Assembly (NCBI RefSeq): GCF_024662215.1
Contig: NZ_CP096115.1
Location: 1,426,001-1,490,000 of the forward strand
From: Methanoplanus endosymbiosus
Lineage (GTDB): Archaea > Halobacteriota > Methanomicrobia > Methanomicrobiales > Methanomicrobiaceae
DNA: 64,000 nt
Direction of reading: 5' to 3'
Under the pieces are notes generated by a model. That model was given only the letters and a program-made list of their open reading frames with translations, had not been told where the DNA came from and searched no databases. This document shows, piece by piece, positions 34,008 through 59,614 of this stretch (position 1 is its first letter; each line of letters opens with the position of its first letter). A program made the translations under genes and the position numbers.

Positions 34008-34008
34008 T

Positions 34009-39031: not shown

Positions 39032-39235
39032 AACCAATAGTAATTTTTCACACATATAACCATTACCAAAAGTGATATTTGACAATATCGTATCAGAGCC
39101 ACACCAGGCCACCTAAAATCTATTTAGATATTTGAAGGATAAAACACACAGTGCAACCTGAGAAAAGGCAACAGCACGAATCTGTGGGGGTCAAAAATCA
39201 CCGCCGGGTATTTATGAAATACCCATGTGAGAATT

Positions 39236-39409: not shown

Positions 39410-39413
39410 AATT

Positions 39414-39488
39414 CACTTAACAAATTGGTTAGTAAATTATATATACTAATTGCTCTAATAAGTGTATCACTTAATATAATGTTAAGTG
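39414..39488. promoter_or_regulatory. operator-like inverted repeats between divergent genes
   Basis: CACTTAAC at 39414-39421, CACTTAA at 39468-39474 and the inverse TTAAGTG at 39482-39488, with TTAGTA/TACTAA arms around the TATA-like centre at 39429-39449. The last site ends ten bases before the ATG at 39498. Confidence 0.5.
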
Positions 39489-39497
39489 GTGAAAAAC

Positions 39498-40342: not shown

Positions 40343-40621
40343 ATGAGGAATCGTTTTCAGAGTATAATCGTGCTGCTGCTTTTGTCAGCTGCAATTGTGC
40401 CAGCTGCAAGTGCTGCATTTCAGGTTGTGCCCTGGGTTGAGCCGACACCAGAACCAACACCTGTTGAGGAAGAACCACTGCCAATTATTCCGGCGCTGAT
40501 GCTTATTGGCGGAATTAGTCTAATAGGATATTTTTTTATCCTGCCAAAATATGAAGCTAATCAAAGAAAGAAGGCTTTTGAAAAGATACGGGCGGAATCT
40601 GCACGTTTAAGGGATATTTGA
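40343..40621 (+). CDS. small exported single-span membrane protein
   Basis: 92 residues from the ATG at 40343, preceded by GGAGG (40332-40336); the longer frame lacks a ribosome site. Signal peptide to about residue 25 (LLLLSAAIVPAASA), a short Pro/Glu-rich outside part (PTPEPTPVEEEP), one membrane helix (IIPALMLIGGISLIGYFFIL) and a basic inside tail. Similar in layout to small structural membrane proteins of archaeal viruses, but that is only by layout. Confidence 0.7.
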   Translation: MRNRFQSIIVLLLLSAAIVPAASAAFQVVPWVEPTPEPTPVEEEPLPIIPALMLIGGISLIGYFFILPKYEANQRKKAFEKIRAESARLRDI

Positions 40622-40632
40622 TGGGGATTTAA

Positions 40633-41460: not shown

Positions 41461-41463
41461 AAA

Positions 41464-43527: not shown

Positions 43528-44087
43528 ACAGGATATGTATAAAATAATATTTTTTTCCACCATAATAATCAACAGTAATATTAATATGATCATGGGTGAA
43601 TGTTCTATCGCGGAACGGCATTTCACCGGATGATGTTTAACCAGCCTTGCATCACCCGGACCCGCCGGATTCAGGCCGTTGTTGCCTGAACGTTTCCGCG
43701 TAGATATGATTTCTGATATTTTTCATATCTAAATATCTCGAAAAAATCAATATTCTCAAACAGCATTCTTGCAGAGAAAATTCAAACGATCATTATATCG
43801 TTCTTCCCAAAAAAACACAACACAAGGGCGTACAGAACGCCCTGTAGAAGGTTCTTAACGGCGTTTAGGGTTTTGCCATAACCAAACAAAAAACCTTCTC
43901 TCATCCTCTTTCATGAAATTTTTTGGTTAGTGGTAACTTTTGCCACCAGCCAGTGATGACCTCTTTCCAAAATGGCAAGAGGTCACAATGACCTTTTGCC
44001 AATAACTCAAAATGGCAAGATGCAACAATTGCCCCTTGCCAAAAATAGCAGAGGGACCATGTTGTTAACGTCAACAAAATGGTAATT
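43528..44087. other. 560-bp repeat-rich end of the element
   Basis: No supported gene. It has several hairpins: CAGGC/GCCTG near 43669-43685, GGGCGT/ACGCCC near 43826-43845, and TGACCTCTT/AAGAGGTCA near 43957-43985. From 43930 to 44045 the words TTGCCA and TGGCAA recur about six times in both orientations. This could be a structured RNA or a binding region. Confidence 0.5.
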
Positions 44088-44255
44088 CTATTCTTCCGGC
44101 AGGTCATTTTCAAAGAACCTGCATACAGGACACCACCACCCGATAGGAACCCTTTTCTGTTTACCATCTGACCTATCAACAAGGCGGATGTATGCCCTTC
44201 TCATATCCGGGTTTCTGCAATCAGGATTCATACACACCGGTGGTTTTAACTTCAT
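44088..44255 (-). CDS. small zinc-ribbon protein
   Basis: 55 residues read on the minus strand: MKLKPPVCMNPDCRNPDMRR at the start and GWWCPVCRFFEN near the end. Two Cys pairs (CxxxxC and CPVC) separated by about 29 residues form a zinc ribbon. It lies about 100 bases inside the right end of the element and faces inward. Such small proteins often regulate transcription; the role here is unknown. Confidence 0.65.
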   Translation of the reverse strand: MKLKPPVCMNPDCRNPDMRRAYIRLVDRSDGKQKRVPIGWWCPVCRFFENDLPEE

Positions 44256-44569
44256 ATGATACCTAATTGTGACTTGGAGATAATTTAAACATTACTCCAA
44301 TAATAACAGTATTGAAGTGTAAAACAAGGAAGGATTACGTAACATAGATTATTGTGCCCCCCCTCAGCGCTCAGATTTAAATTTAAGAACTTAAATCCGG
44401 ATGTGGACATCTGTACTTTGATATACCTGATTTTTATCACAGTGTAAATCTGCGCAGGATTTAATCATAAATACGTTCATTATGGAATCAGAGACCATTA
44501 AAGGCATAATTCTGTCAGGTTATGAAAAAATCTGACATTTTTTAAAAAAAAAGGTATGGGGAGAAGCAT
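44256..44569. other. gap holding the right element end
   Basis: Contains attR (44359-44369). Near 44513-44543 a TGTCAG/CTGACA inverted repeat is followed by a T run on the plus strand, next to the 3' end of the kinase gene. No gene seen. Confidence 0.5.
44359..44369 (+). repeat. right attachment repeat (attR)
   Basis: CCCCCTCAGCG, the same 11 bases and orientation as the tRNA-Ser end; the next base upstream differs (C instead of T). Confidence 0.75.
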
Positions 44570-47329
44570 TTAGATGTGGTCCATAAGCAACTGATGAATC
44601 AGCACTTCAGAACGTATTAACAGATCATCTGAGACCTCATCAACTCCGTACTCAATACTCATCCCAATCTCCTTACTCAGATCTGTGAACTCTTTCTGCT
44701 TATCCTCAGGAATAAGACGGATAATATCAAGAATATAAGAGTAAGCCTTTGGAAGATCTCCCATCTTCAGATTGATCATAATGAGATCTGCACAATAATA
44801 TACTGCCTTCCCGGTATTATTGAGTGAGAGACTCTTCTTCATCGTCTGCTTAAGCTCAATATCCAGATATGCCCCGACATCTGCCTGGAGATCAGCAGCC
44901 TTCTGATATCTTTCGTCTTTATTCTTCCTCAGACACTTCATTATAATATCATCAAGCGGTTTAAGTTCCGGATTAAAACTCGATGGAAGAGCCGGGTCCT
45001 CAAAGATTATCTTTGTACTGATCTCAGCGACACCACTGCCGTTATAAGGCAGATGACCAGTCACCAGTTCATAGAATATAATGCCCAGCTGATAGAGATC
45101 TGTCCGGGAATCTGTATTCCCAAATTTATCTGATGATACCTGTTCCGGAGCTGCATACAACGGAGATATAGCAATCATTGTTGATGTCTTCTTATGCGAT
45201 TCTACCTTGGAGAGACCCCAGTCCATAATCTTTGGCTCCCGAAGTTCGTTGATTAGAACATTGTGGGGTTTTAAATCACGGTGGACTATTCCCTTGCTGT
45301 GAGCAAACTTCAGACCCTCAGCGACATCAAAGATAATGCGGGCTGCTTCACGGGCATTGATTGGTTTTTTCATCTCCTCGATACTGCCGGAGTCAATATA
45401 CTCCATCTCAAAATACGGAATCGGAAGAATGTTGATATCGTACAACTCAACGATATTTTTATGTTTAAGTTCTCCCCAGCTTTTTATCTCTTTTAAGAAA
45501 CTTTTCCCGGTTTCAGGGTCCATCTCAAGAGGGAATTTAATAGCAACTTCTTTCCCGTCACTGATCCTTGTTGCCTTAAAGACCATTCCAAATCCTCCTT
45601 TTCCGAGATACTCTGAATCTGAGTATAGATACATAAGTTTTTCCGGAAATTCCCTTGGAAGAGACTCATAAAGGTGCCTTTTGGACGAACGGGTATTTTT
45701 TGACCTTGTGATTGTATTTCCGACAGGAACCGGAGGAGATCTCCGCTTCATATATACGACCACACCACCTATGAGAAGACAGAACAATATCCCTCCTCCA
45801 AAGATAAAACCAGGATTTAAACCGGAGATCGTTGGCAGGGCAATCATTTCAGGTGGCCTCTCAGTAAGGGTGAGATTGAATTCAACGGTCTCAAACGCAA
45901 CCACCTGAACCTGACCGGAACTGTTCAGATAACCATCCATCTCAATATTAATGAAGTAGCTGCCCTCCGGAAGTGATTCAATAACACAGGGGGACACCCC
46001 ATAATACTCATTGTCAAGATAGACATAAGCCCCTTTAGGAGTGCTGTTTATGGCAAGATCTCCGGGACCTCTGCTGAGAGTGGTTGAAAATACTGATGTC
46101 TCACCCGCTTTTGTTCTGATTACCTCAGAAGATTCCTCATAACCATCCATATTCAGCGTTATGGGATATGCACCCTCTCTGAGATCCGATAGAGTGAATG
46201 GAGTAGTTCCGGCAACCGATCCGTTTACAAACACCTCAGCCCCCTGAGGGGAAGAGTCTATAGATATAGCAGATGGTTTCGTTGACACAAAATGAAGTGC
46301 ACCATCGACATATGCAACATACAGAACATCGTCACTGAAGGAAAAATCCCGGAGAGGTTTTGAATTCTTATAGACATAGATAAGATTCCCCTTACTATTG
46401 AAGAGATAAAGTATTGAATCAGATGCAGCTGCAAATTGATCACCGGAAGGCAATACATGGATATAGTTAAGAGGATATCCGTCCAGTGACCAGATACTTG
46501 TATCCACATAACTCACAAAGTCAAATGAGAATACCTGCTGATCATTATTCGCCCCAAAGAAAGAGTTATCTCTCGGTGAAAATGCATATGTGTGGATTTG
46601 AGATGCATTTTGAGGGTATCTCCAGATCTCAAGCCCGTCCTTATTCCACGCTATTGGATATTGCGTGCCCCCCACACAGACATCGCCATTCCATGAGACA
46701 GCACTTTTTGCACCCCCTACGCTCTTCGACCAGAGCAGATCTCCATCCCCGTTCAGATAACAGCATTTACATCCCGTTATCACACAGACACCACTCCCGT
46801 CTTCCGCAACCGAGACAGAATCAATCCTGGATTCAAAGGGAGAACTCCAGATTAATCCGTCTTTACCAAACAAAAACACTTTATCCGAACCGACAGCCAG
46901 ATATTCACCCAATACCGAAAAAGAATGAGAGATTATATCAGACCCGATATTCTCCTCCCATACAATATCCCCTTCAGGATTTATCAGCATTATAGAACCT
47001 GAACGGGTAAGCGCGTACAATGAACCCCCATCATCAGTAAAAGAGAAATCAACAATTCTGGAATTGAGATTTTTTCTCCAGAGTAATTCCCCGACATGAT
47101 TCAGAAGCATCAGATCACTGCTTACAGAACCAGCAGCAATGTAAGAACCATCATGAGATACATCAACAGATTCAAGTTGAATTCTGTCTGAGTAAGAAAA
47201 TATCTCAAGAGAATTTGAATCCCCGGCTACCCCCTCAGTTGCCGCAACAGGCAATACTGATACCAAGACAATAAGAGTAACAAGCAAAAGAATGGTACAT
47301 GATATATACCGTTCAATAACTGGTTTCAT
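44570..47329 (-). CDS. membrane Ser/Thr protein kinase with outside beta-propeller and PEGA domains
   Basis: 919 residues. Signal or anchor helix at the N-terminus, then a beta-propeller of WD40/PQQ-like repeats (about 35-350; repeated GD.LW, GLEIWRY and G.LIYVYKNS patterns), two PEGA domains (about 352-490; YPITLNMDGYEESSE and SYFINIEMDGYLNSS), one membrane helix (about 505-526), then a Hanks-type kinase (about 575-835). The kinase keeps GKGGFGMVFKA, VAIK, HRDLKPHNVLIN and KIMDWGLSK (DWG in place of DFG), and APEQ. A helical C-terminal part of about 80 residues ends it. The propeller probably senses something outside; the kinase acts inside. Confidence 0.92.
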   Translation of the reverse strand: MKPVIERYISCTILLLVTLIVLVSVLPVAATEGVAGDSNSLEIFSYSDRIQLESVDVSHDGSYIAAGSVSSDLMLLNHVGELLWRKNLNSRIVDFSFTDDGGSLYALTRSGSIMLINPEGDIVWEENIGSDIISHSFSVLGEYLAVGSDKVFLFGKDGLIWSSPFESRIDSVSVAEDGSGVCVITGCKCCYLNGDGDLLWSKSVGGAKSAVSWNGDVCVGGTQYPIAWNKDGLEIWRYPQNASQIHTYAFSPRDNSFFGANNDQQVFSFDFVSYVDTSIWSLDGYPLNYIHVLPSGDQFAAASDSILYLFNSKGNLIYVYKNSKPLRDFSFSDDVLYVAYVDGALHFVSTKPSAISIDSSPQGAEVFVNGSVAGTTPFTLSDLREGAYPITLNMDGYEESSEVIRTKAGETSVFSTTLSRGPGDLAINSTPKGAYVYLDNEYYGVSPCVIESLPEGSYFINIEMDGYLNSSGQVQVVAFETVEFNLTLTERPPEMIALPTISGLNPGFIFGGGILFCLLIGGVVVYMKRRSPPVPVGNTITRSKNTRSSKRHLYESLPREFPEKLMYLYSDSEYLGKGGFGMVFKATRISDGKEVAIKFPLEMDPETGKSFLKEIKSWGELKHKNIVELYDINILPIPYFEMEYIDSGSIEEMKKPINAREAARIIFDVAEGLKFAHSKGIVHRDLKPHNVLINELREPKIMDWGLSKVESHKKTSTMIAISPLYAAPEQVSSDKFGNTDSRTDLYQLGIIFYELVTGHLPYNGSGVAEISTKIIFEDPALPSSFNPELKPLDDIIMKCLRKNKDERYQKAADLQADVGAYLDIELKQTMKKSLSLNNTGKAVYYCADLIMINLKMGDLPKAYSYILDIIRLIPEDKQKEFTDLSKEIGMSIEYGVDEVSDDLLIRSEVLIHQLLMDHI

Positions 47330-47748
47330 ACGATTACTATAATTTCATATGATATATATCTGTTTATTTAATCCAATAGCTCAGGAAGAGTCTTTCCAGT
47401 CACCCACAATCATATCAGCCCAAACTCCGGTTGAAAAGTGGATTATCAACCAAAATATATTTAATTGAACTTATTTTATGAATACAGACCCATTGCATTG
47501 AGAAATATCCCACAACATAATCCCCAATAAATTTTGGGTTTGAACAGACAGAAATATTGACCAAATATATTTTAATTCAGAAAATCAACCCAAATTGTAA
47601 GAATTAGGAAAGAAACCCCTAATTCATAACCGGAGTTTGGGATCTACTAACAAAACAGAGTTGTCGCGGCATTCATATCCGCCATGCTTTTGCTACCCAA
47701 AATCAAGGATTGGGACTGCCACAAATTGATGAAATAAAGTTCCTGGCA
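47330..47748. other. gap between kinase and phosphatase genes
   Basis: AT-rich. Near the kinase it holds the TATA box, and around 47448-47475 and 47560-47600 two similar stretches ACCAAAATATATTTAATT and ACCAAATATATTTTAATT recur, followed in the first case by an imperfect palindrome CCCAATAAATTTTGGG at 47523-47538. These may be regulator sites. No gene seen. Confidence 0.45.
47351..47360 (-). promoter_or_regulatory. TATA box of the kinase gene
   Basis: GATATATATC, centred about 26 bases before the ATG at 47329, so the kinase mRNA is likely leaderless and has its own promoter within the cluster. Confidence 0.45.
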
Positions 47749-48582
47749 TCAGGTCCCCTTCCGGATAATTACCGAGATATTATCATTTGATCCATACATC
47801 AGACTCTCAGCACAGATCATCTCACAGATCTCTTCAAAAGTGTATTTCTGATCAATTAACCCACAGAACTCACAGATCTTCTCATCACTTAAAAACCCGG
47901 AGACACCATCGCTCATAACCATAATGATGTCATTATTTCTAAGATGGCACGCTGCAATATCAACAAGAAAATCAGTTCTCATGGTATGAGTCACAACAGA
48001 AGACATAGGATGATCATCTGCCTTATCCTCAGAAACAATTCCCGCCTCCACCATCTCACGGATCAGTGAATGATCCTCTGTCACATGCCTGACACTGTAT
48101 TTTCCGTTATCTCCCAACGATAAGAGATAGGCCCTGCTGTCCCCGGTATTTGCATAAATGATACTGTCATCATATCTGAGGGCTGCAACGAGAGTACTGT
48201 TCAGATCCGACCTGAGCAAAGCACCTTCCTCTTCAACCGCATCACGTGCTGCAACAAATGCATTTTTGATTATATCTTCCGGATTTTTGATTTTTTCAGA
48301 CCCCAAAAATGACTTCTTTACAGATCTACAGGCCGCAGATACTGCAACAGAGGATGCCTTCTCACCGTAGTCAGCCCCACCAAGGCCATCAGCAACAACA
48401 AGGAAATCAACATATTCCCCGCTTAATACACCAATCGAATCCTCATTTGAGCCACGAATTCCGGGGACCGTTATGCCGGCAAAATTTCCAAAAAAAATCT
48501 TCCCTGACTCACCTCCGCCGATAATCCTCTCATCTTTAAGGGCCGTTTCTTTTTTCAAAGAAGAGAATGAAAAAGATGTCAT
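47749..48582 (-). CDS. PP2C-type Ser/Thr protein phosphatase
   Basis: 277 residues. PP2C motifs with metal-binding Asp residues: RGSNEDSIGV, VVADGLGGADYGE, ANTGDSRAYLL, TEDHSLI, VMSDGVSGFLSD and GSNDNISVII. It has no membrane helix, so it is cytoplasmic. It would reverse the phosphorylations made by the kinase encoded next to it on the same strand, the common kinase-phosphatase pairing. It starts 118 bases after the SPFH gene. Confidence 0.95.
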   Translation of the reverse strand: MTSFSFSSLKKETALKDERIIGGGESGKIFFGNFAGITVPGIRGSNEDSIGVLSGEYVDFLVVADGLGGADYGEKASSVAVSAACRSVKKSFLGSEKIKNPEDIIKNAFVAARDAVEEEGALLRSDLNSTLVAALRYDDSIIYANTGDSRAYLLSLGDNGKYSVRHVTEDHSLIREMVEAGIVSEDKADDHPMSSVVTHTMRTDFLVDIAACHLRNNDIIMVMSDGVSGFLSDEKICEFCGLIDQKYTFEEICEMICAESLMYGSNDNISVIIRKGT

Positions 48583-48699
48583 CTTTACCGCACCATTCTA
48601 ACCTTATTCACAATCATATCAGCTATATCCATCAGCTCACCGGTTACCCCATCTACCCTATCATGAGAAATTAATCGCAGTGATATAATAATACCGCAA

Positions 48700-50685
48700 T
48701 TACAGTTTCTCCCCGCAATCAGTGCAAAAAGCCGCTGATGAACTTAGCTCAGCCCCGCACGCAGGACACTCCTTAACGCCCTCAGGATTAACCCCTTCCG
48801 GCACAGCTTTGCCCTGCGTGTCATTCTCAGAGCCGCCACTATCCGGCTGAGTGTTCTGCTGCACCGGATTTATAATAACCGGCTGACCACCAAAACCACC
48901 GCCTCCGGTAACGACAGTTGACCCCTGCGCCTGCTGTGCACTGCTCCTTGCAGTAGCCGTACTGCCCATAGCACCCAGAGCCTGATTCATAACATCGACC
49001 ATACGGTCTGAATTCTCGCCAAAAGTCGCCTGCACCATAGCCATATACCTCTGCTGATCCTCAAGACGTGCAGCATGCATCTTCTCCATCTCTTCGGAGC
49101 CAAACTTCTGTTTTATAGCTTCGGCAGCTGCAACGGAATCCCTGGCAGAAAGGGCTACAATCTGTTCGGCACTAAGGGAGGCTGCACGTTTCATCTTCTC
49201 TAATTCAGTGATCTGCTCAGCAGCATCACGACCGGCCATTGTGATTAAGGCCTCAGCAGAAGCATTTGTTCTGTGACTGAGTTTAACCCCCTCAATCTCA
49301 GCCTCCTTATCAAGATCACGATGAAGGATCTGCTGCTCTCCGGTTTCCCTCTGCAACTTTGCCTCAGTCATCTTCATCTTCATATTCAAGAGAGAATCCA
49401 TCTCCCTCATATCACGTTCATGCTCACGTCCAGCCCACTTATCCTCATGCTCTTTCTGCGAATCATCCATTCTTATGCCATGCTCATTATAAGAAAACTC
49501 CTGACCCATTTTATTAGAAAGCTCAGCATTTGACAGATCATGACCATGTGCCTGAATAGCCTTCTCCCTCACAATAGCACGAATAAATTCTGCATCATCC
49601 CGCCGGTGTGAGATCTTAATTTTTAACTCCTCCAACTCATTTTTACGGATAAGCCCACCAATCACAAGTTCATGGACGAAAGCTTCAACATCATCATCAT
49701 TCTGAAGCCTGTGCATTTTGTCATCCGAAAGAATTTCCCTGAGCTTTTGTTCAATATCAACATCAACGGTTTTTCCGGTGATTAACTTTGTACCACTGCC
49801 CTTCTTACCGATAATTTCACTCCATTCAGCTTCATCGCAATTAACAAACCTGAGATGTTCTATTGAAAAACCATAACTGATTAGCGTCGGAGATACCTGC
49901 ATCAGGGTTTTCTGCTCAATCTCATCTTTAATCTTAAGATTGCCATGAAGGTCATCCATCTTATAACTATAAAACGCAGACTGAACAACAGCCAGAATGT
50001 CGTGCTTTAGTTCATCCTCAAGATCACTTAACAGAACCTGATTTTTACCCTTCAGATAATTATCAATAAAACTCTTGGAATTAACATTTTTAACTGTCAG
50101 CTTACCGCTGACACCTACAGGAACAGAATCTGCGGTTCTGACCTGCGTATTATCAAAGGAAAAATCAATGCTTATTATACCATCATCAATAAGTACGACA
50201 GTCGCACGATCATCCAGATTTACAGGCAGCTTTGTCTCAAGAATATTGCCTAAACTGTAATGACCGGGTGTAAGATCACCAACAAATGCCCCCCCCTGAA
50301 AAAGCATTGCCCGCGTCCCTTCAGTAACTGTAACTGTTTTTTTAAGAATCCCGCGAAGTTCATCAACCTCAAATCTCCTGGCGAAATCTTCAGGATTCCT
50401 CCTCCATTCACGTTTACGTGAAAATTCATCCCTGCTGTTTCCGGGATCTATAATAGCCTTTGATTTCTTCACATTACTCCCACAGCCAGGGCAGAACTTA
50501 GAATTAACAGGAACAGCAGCACCGCATTTGCCACAGAAAAATGTTTCAACTCTCTGCCCGCAATATGGGCAGAATTTTGCTTTATCATCAAGTCCTGAGC
50601 CACATTTTGGACAGACTTTACCACCATCATCAGACCTTACATCTCCGGAATCGGATTTTTTACTGTTTCTCCCAAATAGTCCCAT
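48700..50685 (-). CDS. SPFH/Band-7 protein with N- and C-terminal zinc ribbons
   Basis: 661 residues from the ATG giving MGLFGRNSKK. Two zinc ribbons at the start: C25, C28, C39, C42 and C51, C54, C65, C68. An SPFH-like domain follows (about 105-295; VTVTEGTRAMLFQGGAFVGD, TKLPVNLDDRA), then long charged helices likely to form a coiled coil (about 400-560), a Gly/Gln linker and a last zinc ribbon (CPACGAEL, CTDCGEKL). It resembles bacterial YdjP-type 'virion core' SPFH proteins. SPFH proteins oligomerise on membranes and make scaffolds. It lies between the coiled-coil genes and the phosphatase gene. Confidence 0.85.
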   Translation of the reverse strand: MGLFGRNSKKSDSGDVRSDDGGKVCPKCGSGLDDKAKFCPYCGQRVETFFCGKCGAAVPVNSKFCPGCGSNVKKSKAIIDPGNSRDEFSRKREWRRNPEDFARRFEVDELRGILKKTVTVTEGTRAMLFQGGAFVGDLTPGHYSLGNILETKLPVNLDDRATVVLIDDGIISIDFSFDNTQVRTADSVPVGVSGKLTVKNVNSKSFIDNYLKGKNQVLLSDLEDELKHDILAVVQSAFYSYKMDDLHGNLKIKDEIEQKTLMQVSPTLISYGFSIEHLRFVNCDEAEWSEIIGKKGSGTKLITGKTVDVDIEQKLREILSDDKMHRLQNDDDVEAFVHELVIGGLIRKNELEELKIKISHRRDDAEFIRAIVREKAIQAHGHDLSNAELSNKMGQEFSYNEHGIRMDDSQKEHEDKWAGREHERDMREMDSLLNMKMKMTEAKLQRETGEQQILHRDLDKEAEIEGVKLSHRTNASAEALITMAGRDAAEQITELEKMKRAASLSAEQIVALSARDSVAAAEAIKQKFGSEEMEKMHAARLEDQQRYMAMVQATFGENSDRMVDVMNQALGAMGSTATARSSAQQAQGSTVVTGGGGFGGQPVIINPVQQNTQPDSGGSENDTQGKAVPEGVNPEGVKECPACGAELSSSAAFCTDCGEKL

Positions 50686-50724
50686 AAAACACACCACCAA
50701 TAAAAACCTAAACTCACATATAAC

Positions 50725-51339
50725 TTAAATAAGTGTTCCTGAATCTGACAACTCCGCTTCCTGAGAAGATAATTTATCAAAAAATTTATTCTTAGCAGAA
50801 TTAACCGTAATATTATTATCTTTCAGATCATTAAGCAGAGAATTAAAAAAAGATTCATCAACAGGCTGAATCCCACCTTCTGTGAGATTATTCCTTGTAA
50901 TATCTGAAAGTTCATCCACCTGCTTCCTGTGATTCAATGATTTAACATTCAACTTAGCATACCAGTTCTCAAGCATTTCAGGATTCAGATCATCAATTTT
51001 ATTCAGGATCTGAGCCTCATTTAAAGTTTTTTGCTGCTCCCTGACTGAGATCAGAGTTGTTATGAGACTATAATCTTTTTCAAGATTTAAGCAGGTATCA
51101 TTTTTTAACTGCCAGGATTCAGAAATTGTCCTTAAACGTAAAGTATAATTGGCTATCTCCACATTATTCTGAAGAGCTGAAGCTTCTGAAAAGAGTATAT
51201 TTATCTGTCTCTCAAGATTATTTCTCTCAGACTTAACTTTCTTTAACTGATAATCAAGTTTTGCCGCTGATTTTTTAAGCTCCCCTGTTTTAATTGAATC
51301 AAAAGAATTTTTTTTAAAAATTCCGGAGAAGATTTTCAT
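50725..51339 (-). CDS. ESCRT-III-like coiled-coil protein B
   Basis: 204 residues from an ATG with GGGGTG before it. Mostly helical: basic helix about 16-50 (AAKLDYQLKKVKSERNNLER), long second helix about 52-112, shorter helices after NPEMLENWYAK, and a polar end. It is a paralogue of the protein encoded just upstream: IFKKNSFDSIKTGEL compares with LFKRNQFDKLKIPEL, and VREQQKTLNEAQILNKI compares with IKKYQRELQKTQIWSKI. The layout (basic helical hairpin, then acidic or polar tail, about 200 residues) is that of ESCRT-III/Snf7 proteins. No direct family match can be proven by eye. Confidence 0.6.
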   Translation of the reverse strand: MKIFSGIFKKNSFDSIKTGELKKSAAKLDYQLKKVKSERNNLERQINILFSEASALQNNVEIANYTLRLRTISESWQLKNDTCLNLEKDYSLITTLISVREQQKTLNEAQILNKIDDLNPEMLENWYAKLNVKSLNHRKQVDELSDITRNNLTEGGIQPVDESFFNSLLNDLKDNNITVNSAKNKFFDKLSSQEAELSDSGTLI

Positions 51340-51363
51340 AATTACACCCCGTATTTATCGAAT

Positions 51364-51966
51364 TTACCTCTCGCTTTCTTCCATAGCTTTCTCAATATCC
51401 TTTTCTATTGAGAACATATGATCAGCTTCATCAAGGTCCAGAGTTCCGGTTTCCACATTATTCCAGATCTCAAACATCTCCTTCTCTGAGTCATCAAGGT
51501 CACTGTCAGAATCAGCTATATCCATTGCAAAGATCTGATTAAGATTGTCTAAAACATTATCAAATCCTTTCCCTGCAAGATTTACTTTAATTAGTGAACT
51601 TTCAAAGACTTCAGGAGATATATTCTGGATTTTACTCCAGATCTGAGTTTTCTGCAGTTCACGCTGATATTTTTTTATGACAATAAGATTGGTAATAAAC
51701 ATATACTGCTTGTGCATACCCATAAAATTGCGGACTTTTAATTTAGCCTCCATATCAAGTTGTTTAAGCTCCTGAGCAATCATCTTCTTCTTAATCAGAT
51801 CCGCTCCCACCCCCTCACTAAACTTTAACTTCTTTTCCTTCTCAATTTTGTCAATTTCCTTACGAAGCCGGTTTATGCGGCTTTTAAGCTTAAACTCTTC
51901 CTCCTGCAATTCAGGAATTTTAAGTTTGTCAAACTGATTTCTCTTAAAAAGTTCTTTAATGTTCAT
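51364..51966 (-). CDS. ESCRT-III-like coiled-coil protein A
   Basis: 200 residues from the ATG at 51966, preceded by GAGGG; the longer frame starts at TTG. Basic helix 1 (about 16-50, LKSRINRLRKEIDKIEKEKK), long helix 2 (about 54-112), short helix near 117-128, then an acidic C-terminal part (DIADSDSDLDDSEKEMFEIW). This is the ESCRT-III layout, and a Vps4-like ATPase is encoded close by in the opposite direction. It is the first gene of the minus-strand operon. Alternatives are PspA-like or simple structural coiled-coil proteins. Confidence 0.62.
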   Translation of the reverse strand: MNIKELFKRNQFDKLKIPELQEEEFKLKSRINRLRKEIDKIEKEKKLKFSEGVGADLIKKKMIAQELKQLDMEAKLKVRNFMGMHKQYMFITNLIVIKKYQRELQKTQIWSKIQNISPEVFESSLIKVNLAGKGFDNVLDNLNQIFAMDIADSDSDLDDSEKEMFEIWNNVETGTLDLDEADHMFSIEKDIEKAMEESER

Positions 51967-52060
51967 GATTACCCTCAAAGAGATACTTTTCTTTATTACT
52001 AAATAAATCTATCCTCCCAAATGGAGCCACTGCAATAACTCCAACAAATGCCAATCCATA

Positions 52061-52639
52061 ATGGAGGCAAGCATTTATAGAGTAAAAAGTACATTGAATA
52101 ACAGAATGGGATATCTTTTAATCGTAGATTACAATTCAGATGCTGAACGGAAACGAATTGATGCTACTATTGACAGATGGAAAAAAAGAAAAAAAATTCA
52201 TAAAGAGAAAGGAGTGATAATACGATTAGGGGACGAAAACATTGAAGACTTCCTAAAGGATCTCTATGCAAGAATGGACGATGGAAGAAAAAATGTCCGG
52301 ATTTTCTCAGCAGAGAGATGTAACACCGATATTGATGAAATTTCAGAGCGGTATCAGTATGAAACCAACATTGAAACTGAGGTAGTCAGACGTTTTATCC
52401 GTTATATCCTCTCAAAATTTAATTCAGGCTATGAGGGAATTAATAACGGAGTTGAGTCCTTTACAGCCTACACGAGAAAAGGACAGGCAAAAGTTGATAT
52501 TATTTATTTCACGCACCCGGAAAATACAAAGATATCATTATCTGTAAGTGGTTATGGTTCCGTGGTATCTCTGGTTGCAAAGCGTATTGATGAAGAATTA
52601 AAATCATATCTCAATAATTATGATGAGAACACACAGTGA
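52061..52639 (+). CDS. hypothetical protein at the head of the Vps4 arm
   Basis: 192 residues, soluble, not recognised. It opens MEASIYRVKSTLNNRMGYLL with an alternating beta/alpha pattern, a very basic helix (KRIDATIDRWKKRKKIHKEK), and an acidic middle. It is divergent from the coiled-coil gene across about 95 bases, so both arms probably share a control region. The frame has good codon structure. Confidence 0.6.
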   Translation: MEASIYRVKSTLNNRMGYLLIVDYNSDAERKRIDATIDRWKKRKKIHKEKGVIIRLGDENIEDFLKDLYARMDDGRKNVRIFSAERCNTDIDEISERYQYETNIETEVVRRFIRYILSKFNSGYEGINNGVESFTAYTRKGQAKVDIIYFTHPENTKISLSVSGYGSVVSLVAKRIDEELKSYLNNYDENTQ

Positions 52640-52762
52640 TATATTGTTCAATAATCTAATCAGATTATCAGAACATGATCTTTTGTTCAGGACTTATAAC
52701 CGGTAAGACATTTATGCCGGGTATAACCGGAATAAAATTTAAATTAATAAAAGAGGGATTAT

Positions 52763-53968
52763 ATGGGAATCGATCTGAGTGGGGTTTTATCAACAGAACT
52801 GAAGAAAAATGTAGAGGAATACAAAAAGGCACGCTCCAAAAACGATATCGGAGAGTGCCGCGATAATGCCCATGCATGTGCTGTTTTATGCTACCAGATT
52901 GCAGAGCAGCAGCCGGCTTTCAGGGATAAATATATTGCAAATGCAAAGAAATGGGAAAATATCGCCACCGGAAAAATCACCCCTTCTTCCGGAAGTCACA
53001 ATAAAAATTCTTCTTCCGGGCCGGTAGCAGTAAAAGGTTCTGAAAAAAACTCAGGTAATTCTTCTGAGATTGATTTTGATGCCTCATCGCTTATAGAAAC
53101 CTCAAGTGTAACCTGGAATGATATCGGAGGGCTTGATGAAGTAAAAAGACTTGTAAAAGAGACTGTTGTGATAGCCGGCCTGAAAAAACCTGATGCGATT
53201 AAACCCTGGAAGGGAATTCTTTTATTTGGGCCTCCGGGGACGGGAAAGACAATGATTGCCGCTGCCGCTGCCGGCAGCCTCCATGCTACTTTTTTTAATG
53301 TCAAATCAGACAGGGTTTTGTCGAAATATTTTGGCGAGTCATCCAAATTAATATCCTCCCTGTATGAGACAGCAAAAGTAAAAGCTCCATCTATTATTTT
53401 TATCGATGAATTCGATGCACTCGGTTCAGCAAGGGGAGAAGGGACAAGTGAGGCATCACGAAAGGTTCTCTCATCTCTGCTAATAGAACTTGACGGTCTT
53501 CAGAATAAAAAGAGCGACCACCTTCTTCTGAGTATGGCTGCAACAAATACACCCTGGGATCTGGATACGGCTGTACTTTCACGTTTCCCAAGAAGAATAT
53601 TTGTTACACTTCCGGATGAGATATCCTGCCGCAGTATTATCCAGATAAATACAGTAGGCCTTGACACCTCAGGGCTTGACTTACCAGGACTTGGAAGAAG
53701 ATGTGTTGAAAAACTTTATTCCGGAAGAGACATCCAGAACCTCTGCCAGCAGGCAATATGGAATATGATTCATGACAAAAATCCAAGGATGGATGAACTG
53801 GCTGATCTTCCGTTCAACGAGCTGAAAAACCGTGTTTTAAATACGAGAGAATTAATAAACAGTGATTTTGAGGAGAGTTTTGAGAGAATACATTCTCCAC
53901 TGAATAACGATGATCTCAAACAATATAATACATGGAATGATGAATATGGAGAGAGAAGCCAGTGTTAA
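52763..53968 (+). CDS. Vps4/CdvC-like AAA ATPase with MIT-like N-terminus
   Basis: 401 residues, close to Vps4 (about 435). Residues 1-70 form three helices with the size and pattern of an MIT domain (STELKKNVEEYKKARSKND, CRDNAHACAVLCYQIAEQQP, FRDKYIANAKKWENIA). A Ser-rich linker follows to 112. The AAA domain has VTWNDIGGLDEVKRLVKE, Walker A GPPGTGKT (156-163), Walker B IIFIDEFDAL (211-220), sensor 1 N262 and arginine fingers near SRFPRR (273-278). The end (SPLNNDDLKQYNTWNDEYG) matches the Vps4 C-terminal helix. Start fixed by GAGGGA before the ATG. In ESCRT systems this enzyme pulls ESCRT-III polymers apart. Confidence 0.88.
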   Translation: MGIDLSGVLSTELKKNVEEYKKARSKNDIGECRDNAHACAVLCYQIAEQQPAFRDKYIANAKKWENIATGKITPSSGSHNKNSSSGPVAVKGSEKNSGNSSEIDFDASSLIETSSVTWNDIGGLDEVKRLVKETVVIAGLKKPDAIKPWKGILLFGPPGTGKTMIAAAAAGSLHATFFNVKSDRVLSKYFGESSKLISSLYETAKVKAPSIIFIDEFDALGSARGEGTSEASRKVLSSLLIELDGLQNKKSDHLLLSMAATNTPWDLDTAVLSRFPRRIFVTLPDEISCRSIIQINTVGLDTSGLDLPGLGRRCVEKLYSGRDIQNLCQQAIWNMIHDKNPRMDELADLPFNELKNRVLNTRELINSDFEESFERIHSPLNNDDLKQYNTWNDEYGERSQC

Positions 53969-54456
53969 TATTCCAGGTTCAACAGCAGTCCCTGACAAAA
54001 ATCATAAAAACTACATAATCTTTCAGAAATCAATTTAAAACCCCAAATAAATCCGCATCCACGGCGCGCAAAAAATAGTATGCTATTTTGATATGGCGAG
54101 TCATAAGAAGACATTTTTCCTATTTATATTTATTCGGAAGGAAAAAGGAATTCAAAGTAAAAATTAGCATCAAAAAATACAATACATACAATAATAATTT
54201 TAAACCATAAATATTAAATGTGCAAAATACAATTGGATTTTTTTGCAATAAACCCAATAATTAAGTAAAATGTAATTTTTAAAAAAAAATTATTAAGCAG
54301 ACAATCTGACACACAATATATTTCAAAACAGAAATTCATTTTTAAAAATAATTATCAAATAAGAGAATTTTTGATTTTTAAAATTATTCTGAGATTAGAA
54401 TCGGATTTTAACCAAATAAAAAACATTAATAAACAGATACGATTTCATACGTAATT
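53969..54456. other. 488-bp AT-rich gap
   Basis: Very AT-rich, with many A and T runs and no open frame of note. The last 60 bases before 54457 contain a promoter-like stretch for the next gene. A small structured RNA cannot be ruled out. Confidence 0.4.
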
Positions 54457-56097
54457 ATGGAAACAATCAATAACAAAAAACACGTCTCAAATGCACATCA
54501 GATAACCCTTCAATCAGCCATTTTAGAAGACAATGTACCAATAGATGAAAAACTTGAAACCGCAGAAGTTTATTCAAAAGCCTATAATATCGCAGCAGGA
54601 GATTACTTCAAGAAAAAAACGACTTTAAAAAATTCCATTGCCGAGATACTGATGAAGCGGAATAATCTGGTTTACGGATCTGTCGCAGTTGCAGTATTAT
54701 CATTAATAGTTATATTTATTCTCTTTTTTAACAATGTTCCGGCCACCATAATCTGGGGGATTCCTCCGGTAGTAATTTTAATAGACATAATTACCGCAAA
54801 CCACCTGCACTCAAAATATACTCAGATGTATGAATCAAAAAATGATGAATTAGACAGACTGAAACCTTCCGGAAAAGTATTGGGTTTATCAAAGGTTTAT
54901 CACCAGTATTTTATAATTCCCCATGGGAATAGCTCAATGCTTTTCGATTCGAAAAATCTTGGAACCAATGAGAAGATTTCTGTAAAATATATTGATGGCA
55001 GTAAGCTCACATATGCTGTAAACAGACTTAACAATGAAATCGATAATTACTCGGATTTTTTCTCAGAAAAACATTCTATTAATGAAATTAAGTTATATTC
55101 TCCGGATGCGATTAAAAATAAAAATATTGATATTAAAATTCAGGATTCACTTCAGAGCATAAATTCTGTTATGGAGGATACAAATAGCGAAGATTTTGAA
55201 TTCAATATCCACCGCCCATCAGGTACATCAGCTGAACTAATAAAAAAGTTGCTCTTCAACGTAAAAGTCAATAATGACCCGTTAATTAATTTAAAATCTG
55301 AAAATAAAAATAAAGATTTCAAGGCTATTCCGCCAGACATTACAATTGAAGGGGTAATAAAAAATATCGAAGGGATCATAAGAATTGAGAAGGAAGCAAA
55401 AGAAGGTGAAAGCATTGATATCATAAATAAATGTAAAAACCGCTTTTCAGCAATAGACAAAATAACTGCACAGATGAGCATAAATCAGAATAACATTACA
55501 AACCATTGCAATAACATAAAATCCTATATAGAATCGTTATCCACAATTGCACTGTGCCCCGAATGCATAAAAAAATATGAAGAGGAGCACGAATCGTATA
55601 ATATCCGGAATATTATTGAGCAGCGCCTTGAATATACAAAAACCGAACTTAAAAATATGAATATTGATTCAGGAATTTCATTTTTAGATTCAGAAATGGA
55701 AATACTGGATGATTTTGGCCTTATACTTCCCAATTCCCTGCTTTATGGTGAATATATAGAAAAAGACCTGCTGGATGTCCATCATGAAGACGGTAAACTT
55801 AAAATTACTGCAAATTGTGATAACCATACACAAAATGAAAATATAAGTATTTTTTGCTCAAGCCATGTATTCTGCCGTCCCGCCATGAGCGTTTTTAACG
55901 AGCTTAAACAACCAATATTAAATCTGGCTGAAAATATGGACTCTGAACTACAACTTTCAGGGGCAAATATGAGGAATGAACGGTTATCATTAGCCCCATA
56001 TCATAATATATACAAAGAGCTGGAGCAGCAATACAAAGAGATAGAAATCAGAAAAGAGATGAATAATGAATTTTTAAGAGTAATCCGGGGGATTTAG
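54457..56097 (+). CDS. membrane protein with two helices and long cytoplasmic helical part
   Basis: 546 residues, not recognised. Two close membrane helices at about 70-90 and 96-112 (VYGSVAVAVLSLIVIFILFF and a second) form a hairpin with both ends inside. The rest is soluble, mixed and coiled-coil rich, with Cys pairs CPEC (near 366-369) and CDNHTQNENISIFC further on that could bind zinc. It is followed by coiled-coil and bactofilin-like genes with two-base and overlapping junctions. It may anchor the system to the membrane. Confidence 0.65.
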   Translation: METINNKKHVSNAHQITLQSAILEDNVPIDEKLETAEVYSKAYNIAAGDYFKKKTTLKNSIAEILMKRNNLVYGSVAVAVLSLIVIFILFFNNVPATIIWGIPPVVILIDIITANHLHSKYTQMYESKNDELDRLKPSGKVLGLSKVYHQYFIIPHGNSSMLFDSKNLGTNEKISVKYIDGSKLTYAVNRLNNEIDNYSDFFSEKHSINEIKLYSPDAIKNKNIDIKIQDSLQSINSVMEDTNSEDFEFNIHRPSGTSAELIKKLLFNVKVNNDPLINLKSENKNKDFKAIPPDITIEGVIKNIEGIIRIEKEAKEGESIDIINKCKNRFSAIDKITAQMSINQNNITNHCNNIKSYIESLSTIALCPECIKKYEEEHESYNIRNIIEQRLEYTKTELKNMNIDSGISFLDSEMEILDDFGLILPNSLLYGEYIEKDLLDVHHEDGKLKITANCDNHTQNENISIFCSSHVFCRPAMSVFNELKQPILNLAENMDSELQLSGANMRNERLSLAPYHNIYKELEQQYKEIEIRKEMNNEFLRVIRGI

Positions 56098-56099
56098 TT

Positions 56100-57056
56100 A
56101 TGGATCAGTCAGAGATAACCATGTTAAATAGCGGATTTAAAAGAATTGAAGATCAGATGAACAGACTTAACAGCCAGTTCAGTTCTATGAATTCAACGTT
56201 AAATTCAATTAATCAATTACAAAGAGACGTAGCTCAGGCCGTAAAAGAATCATCTTCGACAATAAATAAACTAAATGAAAATATTAAAAAAATTGAGATT
56301 GAGAAAGCAAAAAGTGAGATAAATATCCTGGAAAAACAGGAATCAATAGTTAAATCTTATAAGGATAATATGGAAAAAATATACCGGCTTGAAGAAAAAA
56401 TACTAAAAAAAGCATACTTTGATTCAATAAAAAATGCGGTTACAAAATTTTCAGATTCAATAAAAAAAGGCTCAGTCAATACAAAGCCGCTGAGATCTGT
56501 TATTGACTCCAATCAGACAATCATTAAAGGCTATGAGGAAATGCTTTCATCAATTGATGAATATAATAAAATCACACCGGAGATATACATAAAACGATCA
56601 AATGACCTGATCACCAAAAAAAATAACATCTTAAAACAGATGGATAATTTTTTGAGAGAACGCAAAACAATTGTGGACAAAATCAATGGATGGGGCACAA
56701 AAGTAAAGTTCAACTCCCCGGTAGTGATAAATGTCCCTTTCTGGGTTGCCTTAATTGAAAAAGACGGACAGATATCAACAATAAAAATCCCAGTATCTGA
56801 ACTGGGAGAAGCAGAAACAGAACCTACCGAAGAGATACCTTATATTGAACATCTAGCCGGTTCAAAGTCCTTAAATTTCAGCGATGAAGTTAACAAATTC
56901 TATAACACAGAGATAGAGAAATTTGCAGTAAATAACCAAATCAGCTATTCAAAAGAGGATCTGCTTTCCGGACTGAAAATGATGCAGGATAAGAAATTCG
57001 TTCATGAAGAATTTGTCAATACCATCTCCCGATTTGAGGTGAATAACAATGAGTAG
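56100..57056 (+). CDS. coiled-coil protein
   Basis: 318 residues. The first half is a long coiled coil (MNRLNSQFSSMNSTLNSINQ, INKLNENIKKIEIEKAKSEI). The C-terminal part from about 195 has a small beta region (VVINVPFWVALIEKDGQIST) and an acidic helix. It starts two bases after the membrane protein gene and overlaps the next by eight bases. No known family. The pattern suggests it forms oligomers. Confidence 0.65.
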   Translation: MDQSEITMLNSGFKRIEDQMNRLNSQFSSMNSTLNSINQLQRDVAQAVKESSSTINKLNENIKKIEIEKAKSEINILEKQESIVKSYKDNMEKIYRLEEKILKKAYFDSIKNAVTKFSDSIKKGSVNTKPLRSVIDSNQTIIKGYEEMLSSIDEYNKITPEIYIKRSNDLITKKNNILKQMDNFLRERKTIVDKINGWGTKVKFNSPVVINVPFWVALIEKDGQISTIKIPVSELGEAETEPTEEIPYIEHLAGSKSLNFSDEVNKFYNTEIEKFAVNNQISYSKEDLLSGLKMMQDKKFVHEEFVNTISRFEVNNNE

Positions 57057-58434
57057 CTCATATTCAAGCAATATTGTCAGAAAATCTGTTGAAACTGATG
57101 ATGCCACTTATGCAACGGTTCTTCCCGATCAGACCTGCGATAAACCTCTTATCCCAAAAAGCAACCCCATAAAACAGCTGGACTGGAAAATATCCTTAGG
57201 GAAAGGTTGTACTTATCTCCCGGAAGAAGGCATATATGCAAAAAATGTTGAAATCGGGTATGGTTCGTGGATAAACGGGAGCATATTTGGCAGGGAAAAT
57301 ATTACTCTCGAATCCGGTTCTTCTTCACGGGGTGGAGGGATAATAAATGGTTCGGTTTTATCAGAGGGCACTGTTAAGATAAAAACTCCGGAATGGAAAA
57401 AAGAAGAATTCAAACAGGATTATTTATATATAAAAGGAGACATTATTGGCGAGAATATTAATATTTCTGCCCCGGTTATAGTACAGGGCAACATTATTGC
57501 CCATGACGCTGTTGAAATATCTGAAAAATCAACTATATTTGGAGGAATTTTTTCAAAAAACAGACTTATTGCCAAAAACATGGTGTCATCATTTATAATA
57601 GGAAAAGATATTCTGCTTGGAGAAAATACATCTGTATTTGCTCCATATATAGTTGCCAGTTCCCAGCTTAATATGAATAAAGTCAGAATTATTTCAGGGA
57701 TCTGTACAAAATGTAAAAATTCAAACAAAAAGGATAATTTTCACTGCAATTTTGAATCATGCGAACAATGCCTATACCTGACCAGTGAGGACATCATTAC
57801 AAAAGGAAATCATAAAATTGCTTCCCATACCTGGAGAACCTATTTTGAAGATAACAATAACTATGCACCATTAAATGAAATTTTTGCTAAACTTCACAAT
57901 AAAAAGAAAGAAGAGGTATCCTTTGGAAAACAGAAATTCAGTGAACTTTCTGAGAACGAACGACAGACAATTATCCAGAATATTCAGTCTATGGTTATGG
58001 GAGACTATGTTTCTGAGAAAATTGATGGAGATAAAATAATCTCTACGGAAGGCAATTATATTGAAAGCGGAGCAACAGTCATTTCTGATTCAATAATAAA
58101 CAGGAGTACCATAGATTCATCAGAAAAAGAAGAAACAAAAAAAGGTACAATTAAAGATACAAATACCGGGAATGCTGTAATTTCTGATTCGATAATAAAC
58201 AGGAGTACCATAAGTTCATCCGAAAAAGATGAAACAAAAACAGGTACAACTGAAGATAAAAATACCGGGAATGCTGTAATTTCTGATTCGATAATAAACA
58301 GGAGCACCATAAGTTCATCCGAAAAAGATGAAACAAAAACAGATGATGCAGAAAATATCAAGTGCAAAAAATGCAATACCACTGTTCCTGAAGGTCATAA
58401 ATTCTGCACAAAATGCGGTACAAAAATGGAATAA
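57049..58434 (+). CDS. bactofilin-like beta-helix protein with zinc ribbon and tandem repeats
   Basis: 461 residues. Residues about 60-200 show stacked short strands with Gly/Asn turns (GYGSWINGSIFG, IKGDIIGENINISAPVIVQG, ISEKSTIFGGIFSK), like bactofilins, which form cell-shape filaments. A Cys cluster near 222-243 (CTKCKNS, CNFESCEQC) may bind zinc. Residues about 343-430 are three 33-residue repeats, each starting VISDSIINRSTI. A zinc ribbon ends the protein (CKKCNTT, CTKCGTKM). The gene overlaps the coiled-coil gene. Confidence 0.7.
   Translation: MSSSYSSNIVRKSVETDDATYATVLPDQTCDKPLIPKSNPIKQLDWKISLGKGCTYLPEEGIYAKNVEIGYGSWINGSIFGRENITLESGSSSRGGGIINGSVLSEGTVKIKTPEWKKEEFKQDYLYIKGDIIGENINISAPVIVQGNIIAHDAVEISEKSTIFGGIFSKNRLIAKNMVSSFIIGKDILLGENTSVFAPYIVASSQLNMNKVRIISGICTKCKNSNKKDNFHCNFESCEQCLYLTSEDIITKGNHKIASHTWRTYFEDNNNYAPLNEIFAKLHNKKKEEVSFGKQKFSELSENERQTIIQNIQSMVMGDYVSEKIDGDKIISTEGNYIESGATVISDSIINRSTIDSSEKEETKKGTIKDTNTGNAVISDSIINRSTISSSEKDETKTGTTEDKNTGNAVISDSIINRSTISSSEKDETKTDDAENIKCKKCNTTVPEGHKFCTKCGTKME
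58081..58345 (+). repeat. 99-bp tandem repeat inside the bactofilin-like gene
   Basis: Three copies starting at 58081, 58180 and 58279, exactly 99 bases apart, the second and third nearly identical (the third is cut short). Each encodes SDSIINRSTI, a polar Lys/Glu/Thr stretch and NTGNAV. High identity suggests recent duplication or gene conversion. Confidence 0.85.
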
Positions 58435-58560
58435 AAATTTCTTTGTAAGTGGTTAGATCCATTACATACTTATGCAATACTATAAACAACAAATCATCAA
58501 AGTTATGTAAAGAATGTAGAGAAAAAATTGCAAAAATACAAATTTTTATCGAGGAATATT

Positions 58561-58574
58561 GTATATAGTATATT
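58561..58574 (+). promoter_or_regulatory. TATA box of the 333-residue zinc-ribbon gene
   Basis: GTATATAGTATATT, about 45 bases before the ATG at 58613, giving a leader of about 20 bases. It also argues against the TTG at 58559 as the start. Confidence 0.5.
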
Positions 58575-58612
58575 CCACAATAATCTCCAATAAACAATTT
58601 AAGACGGCATAC

Positions 58613-59614
58613 ATGTTCAACAAAGTGAATCTCAACGGTGCAAAGGATTTAATTTCAACAGCTGAAAAAGTACTTAACAGTGGCTCTTCCATTTCCAGAC
58701 GATCCTATGATGAAAGAGTCAGACTTATGCAGGAGATCCATGAGCAATATTCACGTTTCCAGGACGGCGAATGTGGATCTTTTAATTCAACATTTAACAC
58801 TTTATTCAGGTCTAAATTTGAAGCTGCCCTCCTGACCATTGCAGTGAGTTTTAATAAAGCAAATGAAGAATGCAGTGAGGTTCCCGGCCAATATACTGAC
58901 GATGAAATCTCCCTTTATGAGATCATTGAACGTTACAGAGTCCTGCCTTCAAAAAAAGAACTCATTAACCTTCTAAGTTCCCCTGATTCAGGTGGTGCTG
59001 CTTTTCTGCAACTGCATTACCAACATATTGATGACCTCGTTGAGGAATTCTGCAACCAAAAAAACCCTGTTAATCCATATCTTGTCAGTTATATGAAGAA
59101 GGAATGGGAGAAGTATGATAAGAAACTCCAGGAAGTTATTGTTGAACTGATCCAGGATAACGGATTAAAATGGTTCATAACATTTATTGCAAACGATATG
59201 AAGACCGCAGAGCAGATCATCTATAATATCTCAGGAGGGATCGTAAACCCTGGGAACGGGGTTCAGGTTATTGACAGCATAATGAACCGTGCCGGCATAA
59301 CAACTGCTGCAACAGATCCCGTTACAAAAGATACAGACCGCGGTGAAGTAAGAATAAATCCGGGAAGCAGATCAGATATAAAATATTCCGGGGGCATAGA
59401 AAATACAGAATCAGAAGTTTTCGGTGTACATATCGAAGACAGCATTCTGAACCGCTCGCACGTAAACGGAGGGCCAGCAATAAAAGATGAGCAGCCTGCC
59501 CTTTCAGAGGTGTACTGCCCGGCATGTGGGACTCAAATACAGGATAATGCACAGTTTTGCACCAATTGCGGAAAAAAGAGACAAAACCAAACCAGCGGTA
59601 AAAAACCTGAATAA
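58613..59614 (+). CDS. helical protein with DSIxNR motifs and C-terminal zinc ribbon
   Basis: 333 residues from the ATG at 58613. Residues 1-215 are helical and match no family I know (SRRSYDERVRLMQEIHEQYS, LSLYEIIERYRVLPSKKELI). The C-terminal half has VIDSIMNRAGI and later HIEDSILNRSHV, the same short motif as in the bactofilin-like repeats (SDSIINRSTI), then a zinc ribbon CPACGTQI, CTNCGKKR. It is the last gene of the cluster and has its own TATA box. Confidence 0.7.
   Translation: MFNKVNLNGAKDLISTAEKVLNSGSSISRRSYDERVRLMQEIHEQYSRFQDGECGSFNSTFNTLFRSKFEAALLTIAVSFNKANEECSEVPGQYTDDEISLYEIIERYRVLPSKKELINLLSSPDSGGAAFLQLHYQHIDDLVEEFCNQKNPVNPYLVSYMKKEWEKYDKKLQEVIVELIQDNGLKWFITFIANDMKTAEQIIYNISGGIVNPGNGVQVIDSIMNRAGITTAATDPVTKDTDRGEVRINPGSRSDIKYSGGIENTESEVFGVHIEDSILNRSHVNGGPAIKDEQPALSEVYCPACGTQIQDNAQFCTNCGKKRQNQTSGKKPE

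Follow-up and report, generated by a model that had tools for sequence, protein, structure and literature searches.

An SPFH-type variant of the euryarchaeal ESCRT system is probably encoded in a genomic island of Methanoplanus endosymbiosus

Introduction

Any account of how eukaryotic membrane trafficking arose has to answer the question of how filaments of ESCRT-III (endosomal sorting complex required for transport III) are nucleated and controlled without ubiquitin or ESCRT-0, -I and -II. The gene cluster at positions 44570–59614 of the window, a 64,000-nt stretch of contig NZ_CP096115.1 of Methanoplanus endosymbiosus, raises this question in a methanogen, in which one island packs genes for a receptor kinase, a phosphatase, a putative SPFH scaffold, two ESCRT-III-like paralogues and a Vps4-like ATPase. 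What system does the cluster encode, and through which of its proteins could the filaments be controlled? The first-pass annotation of this DNA proposed an ESCRT-III/Vps4-like membrane-remodelling system joined to a kinase, a phosphatase, an SPFH protein and a bactofilin. All nine genes that it described are open frames at the coordinates that it gave, and two genes of the forward strand, 52061–52639 and 58559–59614, were absent from its description. The analysis presented here indicates that the cluster is probably an archaeal ESCRT system, namely, an SPFH-type variant of the euryarchaeal Main-clade systems.

ESCRT-III-like proteins and the Vps4-like ATPase

Two neighbouring genes of the reverse strand encode ESCRT-III-like protein a (51364–51966), recognized by fold and profile comparison, and its divergent paralogue, protein b (50725–51339), recognized by profile comparison. 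Both are coiled-coil proteins of about 200 amino acids for which no family was found in the Pfam search; the homology of the a and b families (hhalign probability 99.6) identifies them as true paralogues. The AlphaFold2 model of protein a (mean predicted local distance difference test score 77, about 90 or more in the hairpin) contains a long helical hairpin of residues 17–52 and 57–99, short helices, an acidic linker of low confidence and a C-terminal helix. As modelled, this layout is that of ESCRT-III, with the alpha1–alpha2 hairpin, short helices, acidic linker and C-terminal helix. In a Foldseek search against the PDB, Sulfolobus CdvB and CdvB2 occupied ranks 2–7, and ESCRT-III or VIPP1 proteins made up 18 of the 50 best matches by fold. 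When PDB sequences were searched with the ESCRT-III profile, CdvB ranked second (E 0.076), in an alignment over the hairpin that takes in the LFE and AQEI segments. The hhalign score to the CdvB/CdvB2 segment was 33.7; the highest score was 15.9 among 150 shuffles and 25.4 among 150 heptad-block shuffles.

The partner gene, 52763–53968 of the forward strand, encodes a Vps4-like AAA ATPase with an MIT-like N-terminus, Walker A and B motifs (GPPGTGKT and IDEFDAL, directly readable) and a Vps4-type C-terminal helix, DLKQYNTWNDEYG. The Pfam AAA model matched it with E 5e-36, and Vps4_C with E 0.001, just below the cut-off of that model. The N-terminus was modelled as a three-helix bundle, for which the Sulfolobus Vps4 MIT domain (2w2u, 2v6y) took Foldseek ranks 3, 5 and 10, with other MIT domains lower in the list. 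In the phylogenetic tree built here, ATPases of related loci branch apart from the CDC48/PAN proteins of this genome, and the window ATPase groups with loci of Main-clade gene content from Thermococcales, Archaeoglobi and Methanosarcinaceae. The closest annotated record is a plasmid locus of Thermococcus peptonophilus, the ATPase of which is 50% identical over 99%; the same locus encodes an ESCRT-III pair, a kinase, a PP2C phosphatase, a Cas2-like gene and arCOG09748.

Several results weigh against the assignment of the pair to ESCRT-III. No single PDB match in Foldseek reached E 0.001 (best E about 1), the TM-score to CdvB is 0.36–0.42, and the sequence-profile match to CdvB is sub-significant. 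The CdvB template in the shuffle test had been chosen by the same profile. The Pfam Snf7 model matched one of 41 family members, weakly (E 0.005), and none of the window proteins, while the Pfam MIT model matched no member of the ATPase family. The Snf7 model is itself insensitive, being below its cut-off in Sulfolobus too; fold and profile comparison was used because both Pfam models are too insensitive. The failure of Snf7 and the lack of a significant PDB match by either fold or sequence would also be expected if the pair were some other two-helix filament or tether served by a Vps4-clade ATPase. This alternative is very unlikely: two methods place CdvB near the top among hundreds of thousands of chains, ESCRT-III or VIPP1 accounts for about a third of the 50 best folds, and an MIT-like domain occurs in the partner ATPase. 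The tests are individually weak, and taken together with the conserved partnership they make it very likely that the coiled-coil pair is ESCRT-III. The first-pass proposals of an ESCRT-III-like pair and of a Vps4-like ATPase with an MIT-like N-terminus thus hold, and the structural comparison that it called for gave ESCRT-III and VIPP1 proteins among the leading, individually sub-significant matches of protein a.

Kinase, phosphatase and Cas2-like gene

Phospho-signalling is represented by two genes of the reverse strand. The gene 44570–47329 encodes a membrane receptor Ser/Thr kinase with an exported beta-propeller (weak Pfam matches), two PEGA domains, a transmembrane segment at about residues 500–525, a cytoplasmic Hanks kinase domain (Pkinase, E 1e-46) and a helical C-terminus; the catalytic motifs HRDLKPHN, with HRD intact, and DWG are readable. 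The gene 47749–48582 encodes a Stp1/IreP-like PP2C phosphatase (Pfam E 2e-14) with visible DGLGG (DG.GG), SDG and NDN motifs. The linkage of kinase and phosphatase and the logic of membrane remodelling, both proposed in the first-pass annotation, are supported.

The gene 52061–52639 (forward strand, alternative start 52106) is a positional and sequence relative of the Cas2-like gene in Thermococcus loci. No match was found in profile searches of the PDB and Pfam. According to its published description, arCOG08177 consists of an inactivated-Cas2-like and a TBP-like domain (PMC10936438); the gene fits this description and is a candidate arCOG08177, assigned on that basis.

SPFH gene and arCOG09748

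The gene 48700–50700 of the reverse strand encodes a flotillin-like SPFH/Band-7 protein (Band_7, 24.4 bits versus a cut-off of 23.6) with zinc ribbons at both the N- and C-terminal ends. An SPFH gene directly follows the gene of ESCRT-III-like protein b in seven loci, namely, those of the window, two Methanocalculus, Methanogenium, two Methanocorpusculum and one mislabelled metagenome-assembled genome (MAG), and full-length arCOG09748 was found in none of the seven. Full-length arCOG09748 is present in 20 other loci, in all of which no SPFH gene was found; the two never occur in one locus. A point against this mutual exclusion is that several SPFH contigs are short, and the missing gene could sit past the contig end. 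The profile of the winged-helix segment found nothing credible in the SPFH loci, the best match in the window (E 0.2) being an SPFH stretch, and the PDB profile search of the segment gave no useful match.

The protein arCOG09748 consists of an N-terminal helical domain, a coiled coil, a globular domain and a C-terminal winged helix (PMC10936438). The profile of its N-terminal domain finds the gene 58559–59614 of the forward strand (E 3e-36) and relatives in loci L051 and L052. In these proteins the rest of arCOG09748, including the C-terminal winged helix, is replaced by DS[IV] repeats, in the window protein DSI.NR motifs, and a zinc ribbon. Every SPFH locus lies within one Methanomicrobiales region of the Vps4 tree, interleaved with loci of the winged-helix type; the SPFH gene may therefore have been gained once and then lost, or gained twice. 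It is possible, although somewhat short of an even chance, that SPFH-type loci form a separate ESCRT subtype that moves horizontally and whose ESCRT-II-like winged-helix nucleator has given way to an SPFH scaffold, with interchangeable zinc-ribbon/beta-repeat adaptors as the client interface.

In a third subtype, mostly from Methanoregulaceae (L045, L048, L067–L069, L074, L076 and L081), there is no Cas2-like gene in the vicinity of the ESCRT-III pair. Some of these loci contain the form of arCOG09748 N-terminal domain, repeat and zinc ribbon, adjoining the PP2C gene.

Comparison with known systems

The Main clade of euryarchaeal ESCRT, Methanomicrobiales included, comprises Vps4, ESCRT-III, arCOG09748, arCOG08177 and, in many members, a membrane Ser/Thr kinase and a phosphatase (Makarova et al. 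2024, PMC10936438). In Thermococcus and Methanosarcina loci, the relatives agree with this description gene by gene, the matching being made by description. The window shares with the Main clade Vps4 with MIT, the ESCRT-III pair, the membrane kinase with an exported domain and the phosphatase, and has a candidate for the Cas2-like/TBP-like protein. It differs in the absence of full-length winged-helix arCOG09748, of which only the N-terminal domain is left, joined to repeats and a zinc ribbon, and in the SPFH gene beside the ESCRT-III genes. All Main-clade systems have been stated to carry arCOG09748 and arCOG08177 (PMC10936438), a statement that seems to need qualification in view of the SPFH-type and third-subtype loci. 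The published Main clade, with its kinases and phosphatases, also means that the "scattered euryarchaeal homologues" of the first-pass annotation underrate the known record. Its interpretation is essentially correct for ESCRT-III/Vps4 with kinase and phosphatase. This kind of system, with its ESCRT machinery, was known already; the SPFH architecture, adaptor tails, island location and decaying other copy seem to be new in the literature searched.

Other systems share parts of this gene set. The Meth_adaptin ESCRT of Methanobacteriales (PMC10936438) has, as in the window, an SPFH protein with a coiled coil and a zinc ribbon, whereas adaptin-appendage, GOLD and ProX proteins were not seen in the window, in which the kinase and phosphatase are found instead. 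Similar to the window, the Bacillus PspA-YdjGHI operon encodes an SPFH protein with an ESCRT-III-superfamily protein, and PspA needs the SPFH protein YdjI for the formation of membrane foci (PMC8581546); a Vps4-type ATPase and a receptor kinase, both present in the window, are absent from that operon. The SPFH-type island thereby connects the bacterial PspA-SPFH and archaeal ESCRT-III-Vps4 worlds. No PF04012 (PspA) match was found in this genome, the same model giving matches in nine of 14 controls. CdvABC of TACK archaea also combines ESCRT-III with Vps4/CdvC containing MIT, but in the window the kinase, PP2C and SPFH protein are added, and the genome has two FtsZ genes, both above the cut-off.

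Distribution of related loci

ESCRT-III-like protein a was found in 13 of 199 sampled genomes of the order Methanomicrobiales. At the level of the phylum, 17 of 393 sampled genomes matched the ESCRT-III family profile, in almost all cases twice, as a paralogous pair. The distribution of the pair is patchy. The scan of 84,980 species genomes revealed 32 loci in Methanomicrobiales, Methanosarcinaceae, Archaeoglobi and Thermococcales, in which the core is represented by genes of ESCRT-III-like proteins a and b and the Vps4-like ATPase, usually with genes for a small Cas2-like and an arCOG09748-like protein; kinases and PP2C often join it. The same core gene set occurs in more than 30 loci, and the linkage of the ESCRT-III pair, the Cas2-like gene and Vps4 exceeds chance. 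The neighbourhood search that the first-pass annotation had suggested thus showed that co-occurrence of these genes is kept in many genomes, and neither of the two outcomes that it had named as refuting was observed. In viral contigs, no relatives were found with the ESCRT-III profile.

Bacterial contigs were also encountered. The plasmid NZ_CP128401.1 of Candidatus Chlorohelix allophototropha (Chloroflexota; L035, 1–14440) contains two coiled-coil genes, one of them ESCRT-III-like (E 3e-16 to the archaeal family profile), together with two kinases, PP2C and a Vps4-like ATPase that begins with the same MPVDLSG motif. Transfers of Vps4 to bacteria have been reported, with snf7 displaced (Ravi et al. 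2024, PMC11237479); unlike in these, a snf7-type gene seems to be kept in the Chloroflexota plasmid. MAG contigs attributed to Bacilli (L055) and Oscillospiraceae (L056), with ESCRT loci of the methanogen type, were rejected as bacterial ESCRT. Mis-binning is likely, since L056 and a Methanomicrobiales MAG have identical ATPases and L055 closely resembles the Methanocorpusculum locus.

Genomic island and second ESCRT locus

Collinearity between the window and the genome G025 of the same genus ends at base 30939 of the window, beside the tRNA-Ser 3' end (30940), and starts again at 59771. Between the points matching 30939 and 59771, G025 carries 1.6 kb of other DNA, and the region 44.4–59.8 kb is absent from the corresponding place. 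Putative attachment (att) sites of an element at the tRNA-Ser gene lie at 30927 and 44357. The right one, CCCCCCCTCAGCGCTCAGA (44357–44376, forward strand), marks the left edge of the ESCRT island, and its final bases continue as the sequence that follows tRNA-Ser in G025. With the right att site likely at 44357, the element extends over about 30.94–44.37 kb, and the ESCRT island of 44.4–59.77 kb adjoins it in the same variable spot. The location of the ESCRT cluster inside the integrase-bearing element was therefore rejected, the likely right att site preceding the cluster. The whole SPFH-type gene set was probably acquired horizontally, and the island suggests horizontal movement of ESCRT kits.

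The tRNA-Ser element (30940–44376), absent from G025, encodes a tyrosine integrase (30999–32597), a UvrD-like helicase, a DnaG-type primase and an unmatched protein of 687 amino acids (41464–43527).

A second ESCRT locus of this genome (9394–12541 of L037, which is G000:C1:434000-453999) is of the winged-helix type and syntenic with the intact G025 locus L038. In comparison with L038, the core of the gene for protein a has an in-frame deletion of about 282 bp and vps4 is entirely gone, while the genes for full-length arCOG09748, the Cas2-like protein and protein b are still open; their cross-use with the window system is therefore possible. It looks like one ESCRT subtype was replaced by another in this genome. 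Beside these loci lies a gene for a large protein composed of DNA repeats of about 273 nt (13109–16327 in L037, 14535–17744 in L038).

Proposed mechanism and alternative explanations

In the proposed mechanism, the two ESCRT-III paralogues would co-polymerize on the inner face of the cytoplasmic membrane. The SPFH/zinc-ribbon protein may be a membrane scaffold that recruits or nucleates ESCRT-III, standing in for the absent winged-helix (ESCRT-II-like) protein; the gene order, the mutual exclusion with the winged helix and the YdjI-PspA analogy point to this role. By analogy with its family, the Vps4-like ATPase would bind filament subunits via MIT and take the filaments apart. The receptor kinase, with its outside propeller and PEGA domains, would sense the envelope and phosphorylate one or more components, and PP2C would undo this phosphorylation. 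More speculatively, zinc-ribbon proteins with DS[IV] repeats could be client-specific adaptors. The purpose is most likely stress- or signal-regulated membrane repair or budding and not division, for which an ESCRT-based role is unlikely because two FtsZ genes are present. The island lets control of ESCRT-III by phosphorylation and an SPFH scaffold be tested directly, and among the hosts of related loci are members of Methanosarcina and Thermococcus, genera for which laboratory genetics exists.

The same machinery may instead serve outward budding and cargo sorting, with the zinc-ribbon/repeat adaptors picking vesicle cargo, perhaps DNA of plasmids or elements. Sorting or vesicles are favoured by Makarova et al. 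for complex euryarchaeal ESCRT (PMC10936438), vesicles of Sulfolobus depend on ESCRT according to PMC12134362, and a related gene set is located on a plasmid, as the window island is beside an integrated element. The literature search found no vesicle data for any Main-clade host, however, and the YdjI-PspA analogy and the absence of PspA from the genome point as well to membrane repair. Budding and sorting as the actual job is a conceivable reading of about one chance in three. A system of defence or mobile-element stabilization, acting on the membrane during infection, would account for the patchy distribution (17/393), the plasmid and tRNA-adjacent locations and the combination of kinase, phosphatase and ATPase. 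It is nevertheless unlikely: the ESCRT-III profile found no relatives in viral contigs, and the PADLOC matches were to generic kinase and AAA models only. In PHROGs and PADLOC together, cluster proteins gave nothing beyond generic kinase/AAA, coiled-coil or zinc-ribbon matches.

For the genes of 54457–58434, all on the forward strand, the chances that they are parts of the ESCRT system or a separate AT-rich module that landed in the island are evenly balanced. They encode a membrane-hairpin protein (54457–56097), a coiled-coil protein overlapping the next gene (56100–57056) and a beta-helix-like protein (57049–58434) with three SDSIINRSTI repeats and a C-terminal zinc ribbon, all putative members of the system. 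Searches of 198 other genomes of the order, of plasmids and of viral contigs gave no relatives of the hairpin protein, and the beta-helix protein matches other proteins of the order in its tail only; the G+C content of the two genes is 31–34%, versus about 41%. With the intervening coiled-coil gene, the two have the appearance of an AT-rich addition specific to this genome. On the other hand, these genes share their strand with those of Vps4 and of the protein with the arCOG09748 N-terminal domain, between which they lie, and the beta-helix protein has DSI.NR repeats and a zinc ribbon like 58559–59614 and proteins of other SPFH-type loci. The hairpin and "bactofilin-like" genes, which the first-pass annotation had counted as parts of the system, are not conserved members, and the name bactofilin is itself weak, 57049–58434 being below the cut-off of PF04519 (E 0.05, 14.3 bits versus 27.9).

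Repeat and zinc-ribbon tails

The SDSIINRSTI motif of 57049–58434 is triplicated in tandem through a 99-nt DNA repeat (58078–58374, forward strand). Tails like those of proteins with the arCOG09748 N-terminal domain terminate this protein and also TPR/Sel1 proteins of Methanocorpusculum loci. The common unit is a short repeat around DS[VI][VIL]xx[SA]x[IV], present in one to four copies ahead of the C-terminal zinc ribbon and joined to different N-terminal domains, namely, beta-helix, Sel1/TPR and the arCOG09748 N-terminal domain. Such tails were found in the window (57049–59614) and in loci L048, L051–L054, L069, L081 and L085–L087, and could be a polymerizing beta-solenoid or a docking tail.

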